From: a virus
IMG/VR virus record: IMGVR_UViG_3300046167_000873
Location: 86,921 to 150,920 of that record
Direction: 5' to 3' (one strand)
Length of the DNA stretch: 64,000 nt
Shown here: positions 2,849-22,695 of the stretch, in pieces
Layout: each line of letters opens with the position of its first letter
Numbering within the stretch: the first letter of the stretch is position 1
Made by a program: the position numbers and the translations under genes
Notes under the pieces: model-generated
What the model was told of the DNA's origin: nothing
What the model saw: only the letters and a program-made list of their open reading frames with translations
Databases searched by the model: none

Positions 2849-4036
2849 TTAGAACTCCAAAATTACTCTTATTTCTTCTGTTTGATCTTGCTGGCGTGAA
2901 ATAGGTACGTCATTTTGTATATATATGACGGCTCCTTCGTTAGGATCTAAATCACCGTATGATAAATCTAAAATATCTGCATTTACTCCGGAGACCACAC
3001 TCGCGAATGTTGCGCCAGATGATCGGCCAGTAATAATTGCTGATTGTCCTGCAGATGCTGTTACAAAATCGCCTACAACACGAGTAAGGTTTAACTGATC
3101 ATCATTCCAAGAGTGAATGTATCCAGTTGTTTCTTCGCCTGTTGCAGCATCTACTTGAAAAACCTGTTCATCAAGTTGAAATACACCTTGAGTCACATTA
3201 CCTTGTATCTTAAACAGCTGATTAAAATCTTCAAATTGGAACTGTGCACTGAATGTTCCTATTCTACTATTTATATCAATTGACTGAACGTTTCCTGTGG
3301 CTCTTGAAGTCAAACCATAAATGAGCTCACCAGTCTTAAACTTAGGAACTACTTTGTTACCAAGAAATGATGTATAGTTTGTTGGTGTTCCAACTGGTTT
3401 AGGTGGTGCATTATTATCAACAACACATGTAGCCAATTCTTTTGTTTGATATGCAATGATGCTGTAATCACCACCGGGTTCTAAGAATGGAATAGTATCT
3501 TGTAAAATGATTGCTGTTGTATTACTGCCAGCACCAACCGTACCTAGATATTTACCAGTACCAGTCACGGATTGCATATAGATATTTTCACCAGGAGTTA
3601 AGAATGTATCGAAGGATGAATCTCCTGATTGCAATACTAAAGACTTACCATCATCTTGTACTGTATTTGCAGTAAATGTACCTTCTATTTTTATTTTCTT
3701 AAACTGAACAACATCTTCGCCTTCAATAAATTCAGTTGTTGCTTCAGTAAAATAGAATTGTGTGTTTGAGAAAACAGGATCACGAATAACACCAAACTGC
3801 GAGAATGTATTTTCTGGAGAGACTAAGTCAGATTCTGAACTGTTGAAGTTAGCAACAATGCTCATCTTAGATGCACCTAACTCAACAATGTTGTTTGCCC
3901 CATGGCCTCCCTGTGGAGGTATGATGGCTCTTAAATCAGAAGGTATAATAGTAACTGGTTCGCCATTAATTTCATCAGAAATCAATGGAGGAATCTTGGC
4001 GGTAGCAAACTTATAATCTGCACCAGTATCAAACAT
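2849..4036 (-). CDS. 8: Baseplate wedge gp8, C-terminal part (separate frame)
   Basis: The open frame is the C-terminal portion of a gp8-type baseplate wedge protein. It ends RQQDQTEEIRVILEF, and T4 gp8 as I remember it ends with a very similar DQTEEI tail. The frame stays open upstream of this ATG to about 4092 and encodes KAFARAIVDSNASNSIIRVE before the Met, so the ATG at 4036 is probably an internal Met, not a start. The part lies in the -1 frame relative to the gp8 N-terminal frame at 4072-5091. A joined product would be about 747 residues, longer than the 334 of T4 gp8. Either recoding or a one-base deletion explains the split. Confidence 0.8.
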   Translation of the reverse strand: MFDTGADYKFATAKIPPLISDEINGEPVTIIPSDLRAIIPPQGGHGANNIVELGASKMSIVANFNSSESDLVSPENTFSQFGVIRDPVFSNTQFYFTEATTEFIEGEDVVQFKKIKIEGTFTANTVQDDGKSLVLQSGDSSFDTFLTPGENIYMQSVTGTGKYLGTVGAGSNTTAIILQDTIPFLEPGGDYSIIAYQTKELATCVVDNNAPPKPVGTPTNYTSFLGNKVVPKFKTGELIYGLTSRATGNVQSIDINSRIGTFSAQFQFEDFNQLFKIQGNVTQGVFQLDEQVFQVDAATGEETTGYIHSWNDDQLNLTRVVGDFVTASAGQSAIITGRSSGATFASVVSGVNADILDLSYGDLDPNEGAVIYIQNDVPISRQQDQTEEIRVILEF

Positions 4037-18727: not shown

Positions 18728-19255
18728 ATGCCATTGAACATCAATGAATTTAAAAGCTCGTTCAGTGAAAGTTTACCAATAACACACTATGAAATGATCG
18801 TCAATCCACCTGGCAATGCCGGAGGTGGTCAAGAAATCAATCTTAGAACAGAAAGTATTATGTTGCCTGGTGTTTCTTTTTTCAGTGTTGATAATTATTC
18901 TGCGTACGGTAATGGTTTGATGTACAACATACCATACCGTTATAGCCCTCAAGAAATCTCAGTCGTCCATACTATAGACGAAGATGCTAATATGATTTCT
19001 ATTTTTAGGGATTGGACGAATAAAATTATTGACTTAAATGGAGATGATAAGTTCGGCGCAAAGTATTTCAAAGATTATGTCGTTGAAGGGCAGATTATTG
19101 TCTTCAATAGACAGTTACAAAGTGCCACTAAAAAGATAAAGCTTTTTGATTTATACCCAATATCTGTAGAACCTATCAATATGAGTTGGGGACAAAATGA
19201 TGATATAGCAAAATTAGCTGTATCGTATCGATTTACAAGATATGAAATGAATTAA
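18728..19255 (+). CDS. Tail-tube-like protein (gp19/gp54 family)
   Basis: The 175-residue protein is of tail-tube size. Its pattern (ITHYEMIVNPP, ESIMLPGVSFFSVDNYSAYGNGLMYNIPY, then a C-terminal FDLYPISVEPINMSWGQNDDIAKLAVSYRFTRYE) is the gp19-like tube fold. Because it sits with gp26 and the tape measure rather than with the sheath, it is more likely the baseplate-tail tube initiator (a gp54 counterpart, though shorter than the T4 protein) than the major tube subunit gp19. Ribosome-binding site is weak (GAGATAAAACAC). Confidence 0.75.
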   Translation: MPLNINEFKSSFSESLPITHYEMIVNPPGNAGGGQEINLRTESIMLPGVSFFSVDNYSAYGNGLMYNIPYRYSPQEISVVHTIDEDANMISIFRDWTNKIIDLNGDDKFGAKYFKDYVVEGQIIVFNRQLQSATKKIKLFDLYPISVEPINMSWGQNDDIAKLAVSYRFTRYEMN

Positions 19256-19270
19256 TAATGGAGAAAAATT

Positions 19271-19978
19271 ATGTTACCTAAGATATCACAACCGTTATAT
19301 GAAATTAATCAACCTTCGACCGGTGATATTCTTCAAGTTCGGCCGTTCCTTGTTAAAGAAGAAAAGATACTACTAGGAGCAAAAGAATCTGGTGATGGCA
19401 ATGACATTTATATGGCGATTAAGCAGATCGTTAATAACTGTGTCACGAATGAAGGGTTTGACGTTAACGATATCCCAATTGTAGATATGAACTATATTTT
19501 TATTAAATTGAGAGCATTATCTGTAAGTCCAATTGTAAAGTTTAAAGTCCAAGATAGTACTGATAATATCGAGTATGAACTTGAAATGGATTTAACTGAA
19601 GTAGAAATAAAGACTGACGAAGATCATAGCATGAAAATAGATATTGATGATCAGATTGGCATTATGATGAAGTATCCTACTCCGTCACTTTCAGAAAAAG
19701 TAAAAGATATTGAAACAGAGGTTGAATTAACAACGGCAACAATTGAAGATTCGATAGATTATATTTGGGATGCTGATGATGTTTATCCATGGAGAGATGT
19801 TGTTCAAAAAGAAAGAACAAAGTTTTTAGATGAATTACCTATTGAGATCTATAAGAAAATACAGTCTTTTTACAATACAGCTCCGAGGATTGAGCATGTT
19901 GTAACATATGAAAATAGTGAAGGTACGGAGAAGCGCGTTGTGTTTCGGGATTTGAACGATTTTTTTACGCTAGCCTGA
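19271..19978 (+). CDS. 26: Baseplate hub protein gp26 (T4_baseplate family)
   Basis: The 235-residue protein is a gp26 homologue: start LPKISQPLYEINQPSTGDILQVRPFLVKEEKILL, DMNYIFIKLRALSVSP and the MIDLTE-like EMDLTEVEI block. The strong site GGAGAAAAATT precedes the ATG. The zinc-ribbon cysteines of some relatives are replaced (the C-terminal THVVTYENSEGTEKR region has none). The frame ends right after FF encoded by T TTT TTT, while the -1 frame continues with conserved sequence, so a longer fusion product is probable. gp26 is required for hub assembly in T4. Confidence 0.88.
   Translation: MLPKISQPLYEINQPSTGDILQVRPFLVKEEKILLGAKESGDGNDIYMAIKQIVNNCVTNEGFDVNDIPIVDMNYIFIKLRALSVSPIVKFKVQDSTDNIEYELEMDLTEVEIKTDEDHSMKIDIDDQIGIMMKYPTPSLSEKVKDIETEVELTTATIEDSIDYIWDADDVYPWRDVVQKERTKFLDELPIEIYKKIQSFYNTAPRIEHVVTYENSEGTEKRVVFRDLNDFFTLA
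19960..19966 (+). other. Putative -1 ribosomal frameshift site (T TTT TTT)
   Basis: In the gp26 frame the codons are GAT TTT TTT ACG, so the T7 run makes a perfect X XXY YYZ heptamer. Slipping one base back gives TTT TTT TAC GCT AGC and enters the frame that runs to 20178. The zero-frame stop (TGA) follows 9 bases later. A T8-to-T7 error is the alternative explanation. Confidence 0.6.
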
Positions 19979-19989
19979 GTTATATCAAT

Positions 19990-20178
19990 TTGTATAACCA
20001 TTACAAAATATTATTTGACATAACTCAGTATCACAAATTATCGATGACGGATATCAATGAAATGATTCCATACGAAAGAGAAATCTACGTCGATATGATC
20101 GTTGAAAAAATGAACACAGAAAAACAAGAACAGCTTGGTGGTGGTGGAGCAGGAGTTCCAATCGAAACCATGCTATAG
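19990..20178 (+). CDS. gp26 frameshift extension (gp51-like small hub/chaperone segment)
   Basis: The frame encodes YASLSYINLYNHYK, FDITQYHKLSMTDINEMIPYEREIYVDMI and a Gly-rich tail. It has no good independent start: the first candidate is a TTG at 19990 without a ribosome-binding site, and the conserved-looking sequence extends upstream to TAC at 19966, inside gp26. With a -1 slip the product would be about 302 residues. The location, immediately before the tape-measure gene, is where gpG/gpGT-type chaperones are made. The IPYERE-type segment is typical of sequences that follow gp26 in marine T4-like phages as I remember them. Confidence 0.65.
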   Translation: MYNHYKILFDITQYHKLSMTDINEMIPYEREIYVDMIVEKMNTEKQEQLGGGGAGVPIETML

Positions 20179-20187
20179 GAAAAAAAC

Positions 20188-22695
20188 ATGTCAGCAGCGT
20201 CAGTAGCAAAGATCTATAAAAGATTAGAGAAATTAAAAACAACATCAAGAGGCGTTGGCAAAGCTGGCGGTGATGTCCATAAAGCTGCCAGTGGTTCAGT
20301 CAGATCTATTACCAATATTATTAAAGGTGGTACATTAGGTGCTGTAGGTACCAGTTTATTGACTGGTCCAGATGTTCAACAACAAACTAACTTTGCTGCA
20401 CCTTTTTCTGTTGACTATACTAATCAAGCATCGAGGGTCATTGAAGACCCGATTATTGATGTACCGAATATAGTAGCTGCAGTTGAATCTGAAGAAATAG
20501 ATCAAACTCTACCAGAAGCACCAGAAAAAATTGATTTAACAACAACCGAAGAAATACCAGTTGTAGCTGAGGTTGATCCTAAAATTGTTGTTGAGAATTA
20601 TTTTAATAATGAATTAAAACCAATTCCTATTGAAGCGTCGCTACCAGCAAGCGTTTCATTTTCTGCAGAATCGCCTGAATTCCAAGCACTTCAAACTGAT
20701 GTCCAAAAACTGAATGGTTTATTGAATACAATCGGTGTTCGAATGAATACCGTTGAAGAAGCAATTGAATCTGCTGTACTTCAAAACCAAAAAACACTTA
20801 GAGATAATGAAAGGCGCAGAGACGAATCAGATGTAGAAGAAAGACCACAACCACAACAGCAGCAAAAACAACCTGGCGCACTAAGTAAAGCTGGTGATTT
20901 TATTGGTGCTGCACTTGGAGCACAACTCGCAAGATATACTCTACCCGCTATTGCATTACTTGGCGCTTCACTTGCTAGTTCTGCTGAATCTGCGTTTGAA
21001 GATGATAGTGAAGAAGCACTTGTCGAAGAGATGGATACAATTGATTCGATGCACGAGAACTATGTAAAAGCAACTGTTGGTGTTATGGCTGCAAAGTCGA
21101 CAGGCGCACTTAAAACAATTGCTGTAGGTTCTGCAATAGGAATAAGTCAGCTCAATGAAAAAGTTCCAAATGTAAAGACTGCTGTAAGCGCTCCTATGAA
21201 AAGAGCTACCCAAGCAATTGTAACAAAATCAGCACCTGTAACCACAGCAGTTAATTCGGCTTTAAAGTCTATTAAAGATATTCGGCCTAATCCAGTCATG
21301 ACTAAAGTTGTAGCTGGTTTAAAAGCATTATCTCAATTTATTACTTCTTTTGCTAAGAGTGTCGCAACTCCTTTATTGTCTAGTGCTTCTCGCTTATTAA
21401 CACCCGTTGCTGATGTTGCAGGAAAGGTCTTAAAAAGCGTGCTTGCAAAACCAGTTAATTGGTATGTAGGTATAGAGGCATTATTTTTGGCAATATCAAT
21501 GGGTGATGCATACCTAATAAACCCATCGCCAGAAGCAGAAAAAGCATTTCACAAAGAGACCAAAACAGCAATCAATAAGCTCATTGATATCATGGGTGGT
21601 ACATATATTGCTACGATGATTGGTGTTGCAATTGGTGGATCACTCGGCACTTTAGTATTACCAGTATTTGGTACTGTAGCAGGAACAATAATTGGTGCAA
21701 TATTTGGCATAATGCTTGGTGAGACTGTTTTTCAAATACTGCCGATCGATTCCATTGTCAATGCTACATACGATTATTTTATAAGGGGTGATAAAACAGC
21801 GTTTAATTCCCTTGGCAATAAAATGCTAAATCATGTTAAAAAAGAGCTTGCTGGATATGCGGACAGTTTGATTGAGACCGTCGATATAGTAACAGGTGGT
21901 GGTATTGAATTAGCCACGACTGAAGATATCTTATCTGAGTATGGTGATTTGACTCCAGTAAAATTACTCGACCAGGCTATGTCTGGTGTTGGTACTGATG
22001 AGAATGCAATTGCATACGCGTTTAAAGATATAAAGACTGAAGCACAAAGAGTTGCTATAAATGAAGCATACAAAGCTGAGACTGGATTAGATCTAGATGT
22101 ACAGCTAAAAAGTGAATTAAGCTCGTCTGAATATACAAAACTTGAACAGCAAATTAGCAAACAATTACAGAGACCAGTTCGAAGTGTACAAATCAACAAT
22201 ATAGAAACGGATATTGTAGAATCGAATATTGTACCGGCAGAGGTTGCACCAAACCAACAATCGCTTGTTCAACCAGTACGCACTGATGCTACTGTAACAT
22301 CATTAACAAAACCTAATATAACCACAAGTGGAAACATATTAGAAGTTATGACAGCGCCTCAGGGAGTTGTGGTGCCGCCTGCACAAGAAACAGAACAGAT
22401 TATTTCAAACATCTTAAATGAATCTACGGTGGTACAAGAAAAAATTGTTGATAATATGAACGTAACCAATATTAACACAGCAACGATAAGAAGCATACCA
22501 GATATTAGAATGGCTACTGTTGAACAAAAAGCTGGAGAAGGTGCTATTATTCCTATTATAGTTCAACCAAAAATAAGTCAACAACAATTTCAAAATCCGC
22601 TAGGATCAACATCTGGTCAATCGCAAATTGATACAGCAAGATCTGGATATAGAACAAGCGATGAATTCTTATCAAACTCATCGCTTCAGACTTAG
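20188..22695 (+). CDS. 29: Tape measure / hub protein (gp29-like) with annexin-like repeat
   Basis: The 835-residue protein follows gp26 as gp29 follows in T4-type order. A charged coiled-coil segment (about 165-225) and Gln-rich linker precede two Ala/Gly-rich hydrophobic stretches (about 236-265 and 472-518) of the kind seen in tape-measure proteins, which cross the host membrane. Residues about 592-655 contain LLDQAMSGVGTDENAIAYAF and YKAETGLDLDVQLKSELSSSE, closely following the annexin repeat consensus. The remaining C-terminus is polar and low in complexity. Length is above T4 gp29 (590). Its last 4 bases overlap the convergent gene. Confidence 0.78.
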   Translation: MSAASVAKIYKRLEKLKTTSRGVGKAGGDVHKAASGSVRSITNIIKGGTLGAVGTSLLTGPDVQQQTNFAAPFSVDYTNQASRVIEDPIIDVPNIVAAVESEEIDQTLPEAPEKIDLTTTEEIPVVAEVDPKIVVENYFNNELKPIPIEASLPASVSFSAESPEFQALQTDVQKLNGLLNTIGVRMNTVEEAIESAVLQNQKTLRDNERRRDESDVEERPQPQQQQKQPGALSKAGDFIGAALGAQLARYTLPAIALLGASLASSAESAFEDDSEEALVEEMDTIDSMHENYVKATVGVMAAKSTGALKTIAVGSAIGISQLNEKVPNVKTAVSAPMKRATQAIVTKSAPVTTAVNSALKSIKDIRPNPVMTKVVAGLKALSQFITSFAKSVATPLLSSASRLLTPVADVAGKVLKSVLAKPVNWYVGIEALFLAISMGDAYLINPSPEAEKAFHKETKTAINKLIDIMGGTYIATMIGVAIGGSLGTLVLPVFGTVAGTIIGAIFGIMLGETVFQILPIDSIVNATYDYFIRGDKTAFNSLGNKMLNHVKKELAGYADSLIETVDIVTGGGIELATTEDILSEYGDLTPVKLLDQAMSGVGTDENAIAYAFKDIKTEAQRVAINEAYKAETGLDLDVQLKSELSSSEYTKLEQQISKQLQRPVRSVQINNIETDIVESNIVPAEVAPNQQSLVQPVRTDATVTSLTKPNITTSGNILEVMTAPQGVVVPPAQETEQIISNILNESTVVQEKIVDNMNVTNINTATIRSIPDIRMATVEQKAGEGAIIPIIVQPKISQQQFQNPLGSTSGQSQIDTARSGYRTSDEFLSNSSLQT

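Follow-up and report, generated by a model that had tools for sequence, protein, structure and literature searches.

The tail assembly chaperones of phage lambda, gpG and gpGT, are reportedly produced through a -1 frameshift (Levin 1993; Xu 2004). In Escherichia coli, the -1 signal of the dnaX gene is made up of three parts: a Shine-Dalgarno-like (SD-like) element about 10 nt upstream, a slippery heptamer and a downstream stem. Among the long-tailed phages, a 2016 review presented the G-T frameshift as conserved ‘except T4’ (PMC5009743), and the literature on the T4 tail refers to gp51 as an essential protein with an unknown function (PMC3004832). According to passages in two later papers (PMC10885494 and PMC12846349), it was Vladimirov, Gautam and Davidson who, in 2022, identified the gp26 and gp51 proteins of T4-like phages as tail assembly chaperones. 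A passage of the first one, citing Vladimirov et al. 2022, adds that, in some T4-like phages, the short and the long chaperone each have a gene of their own, in place of a frameshift (PMC10885494). The corresponding passage of the second one, also citing Vladimirov et al. 2022, mentions poly-T frameshift signals as known in T4-like TAC-N genes, and describes a poly-T -1 frameshift for the chaperones of the Vandenendeviridae and Andersonviridae (PMC12846349). As far as these passages go, the kind of frameshift studied here is thus already known, given the naming by Vladimirov et al. 2022 and the later citation of the poly-T signals.

The DNA analysed here, hereafter the window, is a whole stretch of 64,000 nucleotides, which forms part of an IMG/VR virus record of 150,920 bases (IMGVR_UViG_3300046167_000873). 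Its gene order at the locus is tail tube, gp26/51 and probable tape measure (Table 1), and we consider it very probable, judging from sequence comparisons, that gp26 and the frame following it constitute one gene, which would yield two products by a -1 frameshift in the manner of a G/GT-type tail assembly chaperone pair. From position 19958, and preceded by AAC, the 0 frame reads GAT TTT TTT ACG CTA GCC TGA, with its stop at 19976-19978, whereas the -1 frame continues after the heptamer as TAC GCT AGC CTG AGT and stays open until a TAG at 20176-20178. An earlier sequence-only reading of this DNA had described a -1 frame open past the T7 run and a gp26 stop three codons on, which is exact when the sequence is read directly. 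The fused product (TAC-NC) would comprise gp26 residues 1-232 plus the -1 extension, 302 aa in total, and its alignment with phrog_150 (gp26) spans positions 7-278 of 282. The -1 part, which the sequence-only reading had left without a name, is gp51, since the family that it matches, phrog_634, is annotated as ‘baseplate hub assembly catalyst’.

Table 1. Features of the gp26/gp51 locus (positions in the window).
Feature	Positions	Strand	Basis
Tail tube (gp19-like) gene, upstream neighbour	18728..19255	+	phrog_45 E=3.6e-17
gp26 CDS (TAC-N, short form), 235 aa	19271..19978	+	PF12322 T4_baseplate E=5.8e-47; phrog_150 E=2.5e-52
Weak Shine-Dalgarno-like CGGGA, 9 nt before heptamer	19946..19950	+	pairing profile, 94 loci, and window values
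Slippery heptamer T_TTT_TTT (0 frame GAT TTT TTT)	19960..19966	+	sequence and relatives
-1 extension, gp51 C-terminal part	19966..20178	+	phrog_634 E=2.3e-16, purifying selection, T4 gp51 alignment
Putative stimulatory stem, 5′ arm CTGAGTTAT, 8 nt after heptamer, holding the 0-frame stop TGA	19975..19983	+	fold, covariation
Putative stem, 3′ arm ATAACTCAG	20020..20028	+	fold, covariation
Probable tail tape measure gene, 835 aa, downstream neighbour	20188..22695	+	phrog_167 E=0.016

That the frameshift lies right before the tape measure holds as far as the position goes, but the window gene itself is only weakly recognisable as such, and the assignment leans on its 38%-identical homologue in the near relative L003, which matches phrog_167 with E=1.7e-7. 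At residues 592-646, the probable tape measure product also scores above threshold for the Pfam domain Annexin (E=2e-7), which is uncommon among the tail proteins of phages. Searching phages at the nucleotide level with the 4-kb region returned zero matches, and an NCBIfam search gave no match.

The set of relatives was enlarged through two IMG/VR scans based on alignments of the fused protein, to a total of 148 scorable loci in 77 clusters at 60% identity. Three more loci were unscorable, either because the contig ends at the junction (two cases) or because of the presence of two heptamers (L105). In this last locus, two in-frame T7 heptamers occur 21 nt apart at the gp26 end (positions 3171-3201), the second one followed by the usual downstream stem. 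All 148 scorable relatives have the gp51 part in the -1 frame, together with an in-frame heptamer located 0-8 codons before the gp26 stop. The longest distance observed, eight sense codons between the heptamer and the 0-frame stop, is found in L029, L038, L040, L041, L052, L056, L070 and L095. In L003 (~70% amino acid identity), the T7 run, the TGA and the open -1 frame are all kept, while the flanks have diverged. By-eye inspection of this locus and 12 others, which come from named phages and marine single-cell viruses (phages of cyanobacteria, Sinorhizobium, Rhizobium, Vibrio and Aeromonas), revealed an identical junction, either T_TTT_TTC or T_TTT_TTT.

The sequence-only reading had looked to relatives for conservation of both frames and of the T7 run. 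The two frames are indeed kept throughout, but the run itself is not: the heptamer is TTTTTTC in 86 loci, TTTTTTT in 61 and TTTTTTA in a single one. The same reading had regarded as the main alternative a sequencing or assembly error, in which an eighth T would have been lost from a gene with a single frame, an idea that the T7 homopolymer and the metagenomic nature of the contig make natural. However, the same -1 break is present in every scorable relative, so that one and the same error would be needed again in each lineage; the TTTTTTC loci carry no plain homopolymer; and all relatives retain the 0-frame stop shortly after the site. An eighth T with a single gp26 frame was found in none of the 148 loci. 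The slip signal in all of them therefore speaks for biology and against a sequencing error, whose probability we deem negligible.

Codon usage at the site points in the same direction as the preferred reading of a frameshifted gene. The first Phe of the site is encoded by TTT in 94/94 loci, versus 73% elsewhere in gp26, and the codon before the Phe pair ends in T in 94/94 loci as well. With representatives at 60% identity, the choice of Phe codon has log10 P values near -4.5 and -7.2, and the T ahead of it has values near -11.7 and -10.1. Judged by these codon choices, conservation of the heptamer exceeds what the amino acids need, and this holds on the 77 clusters. For the 60 codons of the -1 frame after the site, the window and L003 show 18 synonymous and 14 nonsynonymous differences, versus ratios of 3:34 and 1:36 in the other frames. 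By this comparison the -1 frame is under purifying selection and, together with the match to phrog_634, the ‘conserved-looking’ aspect attributed to it proves well founded. Just upstream of the slip site (19914-19966), the DNA of the window and that of L003 are almost identical, whereas the genes are far more diverged elsewhere; the final 18 codons hold 2 synonymous codon differences, compared with 42 for 153 codons.

The conserved gp51 part could also be made as a separate protein, by translational coupling or reinitiation near the gp26 stop, the T run being then incidental. An ATG does occur in 46/148 relatives in the interval that runs from the upstream -1 stop to the ninth codon of the -1 frame, and gp51 stands in GenBank as a gene of its own, with an ad hoc start, for the phages S-ShM2, S-PM2 and P-HM1. 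However, 77/148 relatives have neither ATG, GTG nor TTG in that interval, so a separate start is not the general route for gp51. In the window, the only start-like codon ahead of the conserved core is the TTG at 19990, with zero ATG, in agreement with the earlier statement that this frame lacks a usable start. Moreover, the heptamer is never lost, and T4 gp51 holds both parts in one chain. A separately translated gp51 is thus, in our opinion, very unlikely.

The public annotations of gp51 inspected (L005, L011, L014, L016 and other loci) include relatives where this part is left unannotated, such as ACG-2014j, DSL-LC03, AS-zj and ACG-2014d. A frameshift annotation was found in none of the relatives' public records inspected.

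The comparison with T4 itself supports the preferred reading of one gene with two products. Residues 12-244 of the 249 of T4 gp51 align to the fused profile (E=3e-6), and T4 gp26 aligns to the same profile (hhalign, E=1.6e-9) and ends exactly at the junction. T4 gp51 and gp26 are themselves paralogues (E=2e-6). T4 gp26 is thus the homologue of the short form and T4 gp51 that of the fused form; the end-to-end alignment of the latter and the stop of the former at the junction suggest that gp26/gp51 act here as a G/GT-type chaperone. The proposal of a gpG/gpGT-type pair in the sequence-only reading, made with no reference to the assignment of 2022, finds support in this in-frame fused version, as well as in the gene position. 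In T4, genes 26 and 51 are separate, lie on opposite strands, and the end of gp26 has no slip site, unlike the window with its one gene in two frames. Aeromonas phage 44RR shares the T4 arrangement of genes 26 and 51, also with no slip site at the gp26 end.

Of 1,339 T4-relative records, 1,334 match the T4-type gp51 over 80% or more of its length and, among the matches listed, they do so nearly always in one piece. On the other hand, 565 records match the fused protein of the window, which appears in two pieces among the best matches listed. By inspection, the frameshifted arrangement was seen in cyanophages, Sinorhizobium, Vibrio and some Aeromonas phages. No second gp26/gp51 gene was detected in the 150,920 bases of the record, which may be incomplete. 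In Enterobacter phage EC-F2 (L157), genes for the long and the short form (ECF2_0170 and ECF2_0171) lie side by side on one strand, unlike in T4.

Structure models were obtained for gp26, with a pLDDT of 93.7 for AlphaFold when an 86-row alignment was used and of 33 from the single sequence. Among the PDB matches listed for this model, the one with the highest probability was the tail assembly chaperone of HK97 (2ob9; probability 0.35, E=1.3, not significant), whereas the best named matches in a viral library were gp26-type hub proteins. No relative emerged when solved structures were searched with a profile.

The sequences flanking the heptamer bear on how the two frames would be joined. Predicted anti-Shine-Dalgarno pairing over 94 loci shows a peak 7-9 nt before the heptamer, the element itself lying about 7-10 nt upstream. 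The strength of this SD-like element differs between heptamer types: the TTC type has a strong one (mean -5.5), whereas it is weak both in the T7 type (about -2) and in the window (approximately -3.8 kcal/mol). Many relatives of the TTC type have a strong GAGG or GGAGG element, and the Glu at that position is encoded by GAG in 16/20 TTC-type representatives versus 195/774 (25%) elsewhere (p=7e-7).

Downstream of the heptamer, the predicted RNA folds of the 94 loci are more stable than those of shuffled sequence (mean z -1.95, with a separate, custom shuffle). The putative stem of the window comprises 9 bp closing a 36-nt loop, with -15.7 kcal/mol and a z of -2.76 (shuffle of the folding tool), and its distance to the heptamer falls within the 5-9 nt of dnaX-type signals. 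The register of this stem was set on 23 T7 loci, 11 of them with at least 8/9 pairs, and, when applied unchanged to the loci added later, it held for these as well. At least 8/9 pairs form in 34/61 T7-type loci versus 1/86 of the TTC type. Among 50 T7-type sequences, both sides of a pair have changed in 22 cells, whereas shuffles gave 7.7 +/- 2.2 and reached that count in 0 of 500 cases; when the partner is displaced by 1-3 bases, pairing falls from 82% to 22-42%. Relatedness among the sequences is only partly removed in these controls. On a tree, the stem-bearing group shows several changes of pair type, and a tree-aware test for the T7 loci with the stem yielded 2 informative independent pairs only. 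About half of the T7-type loci have no long-range stem, so it is not essential everywhere. A coupled evolution of the T7 run and the stem, which the counts by heptamer type could evoke, is not claimed because of its few independent origins. An Rfam search at the site gave no family. As a design, the conserved long-range stem in the window's clade may be new to the literature.

T runs are able to cause slippage of RNA polymerases, so the seven T of the window might also lead to the addition of a U and to a fused protein translated from an edited mRNA. However, in most relatives the run consists of six T followed by C, which is short for polymerase slippage, and the SD-like spacing and the covarying stem 8 nt downstream are signals of a translational kind. 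We therefore see little room for transcriptional slippage, and the flanking signals support frameshifting by the ribosome.

In the mechanism that we propose for the gp26/gp51 gene, most ribosomes would end at the gp26 stop at 19976 and release the short form (TAC-N). We infer that a minority of them slips back one base on T_TTT_TTT when two tRNA-Phe occupy TTT TTT, after a pause probably prompted by the putative stem. The slipped ribosomes would read 70 further codons, and the resulting 302-aa product (TAC-NC) would be the long form, which corresponds to gp51 of T4. If the pair behaves like lambda gpG and gpGT, many short and few long chaperones would then bind along the tape measure protein as a coat, and the subunits of the tail tube would be recruited through the gp51 tail, after which the chaperones would leave.

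On a larger scale, we propose two designs of the chaperone frameshift signal within the T4 supergroup, a reading to which we assign roughly even chances of being right or wrong. One of them, present in cyanophages and others, would combine U_UUU_UUC with a strong internal SD-like element. In the U_UUU_UUU design of the window's clade, the SD-like element would be weak and accompanied by a long-range, covarying stem with the stop of the short form in its 5′ arm. T4 and its kin would have replaced the frameshift through duplication of the gene into 26 and 51. These data point to frameshifting in much of the wider T4 supergroup, with the two genes 26 and 51 of T4 as the exception. The role of gp51 thus becomes testable as the long form of a chaperone. 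Likewise, many of the small ‘gp51’ genes in the records of marine T4-like phages are suggested to be the tails of a frameshifted gene, and would need re-annotation.

Among the known systems, the likeness to lambda G/GT lies in the two overlapping frames between the tail tube and the tape measure, with the slip site close to where the first of them ends, and in a -1 extension which, in about half of the relatives studied here, has no start of its own. The differences are a protein family that is distinct by sequence, a poly-T slip site in place of G_GGA_AAG, and a covarying downstream stem, to which relatives add the upstream SD-like element. The chaperones of the Vandenendeviridae and Andersonviridae, as described in passages of PMC12846349, resemble the present ones in the GTTTTT motif located where the short chaperone ends and in the conserved open -1 frame. 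However, they belong to another phage group, and stimulators upstream or downstream do not feature in that paper's passage on the frameshift. The three-part layout of dnaX is reproduced in many of the TTC-type relatives, whereas the window departs from it with a weak SD-like element and, in place of a tight hairpin, a long-range stem with a 36-nt loop.
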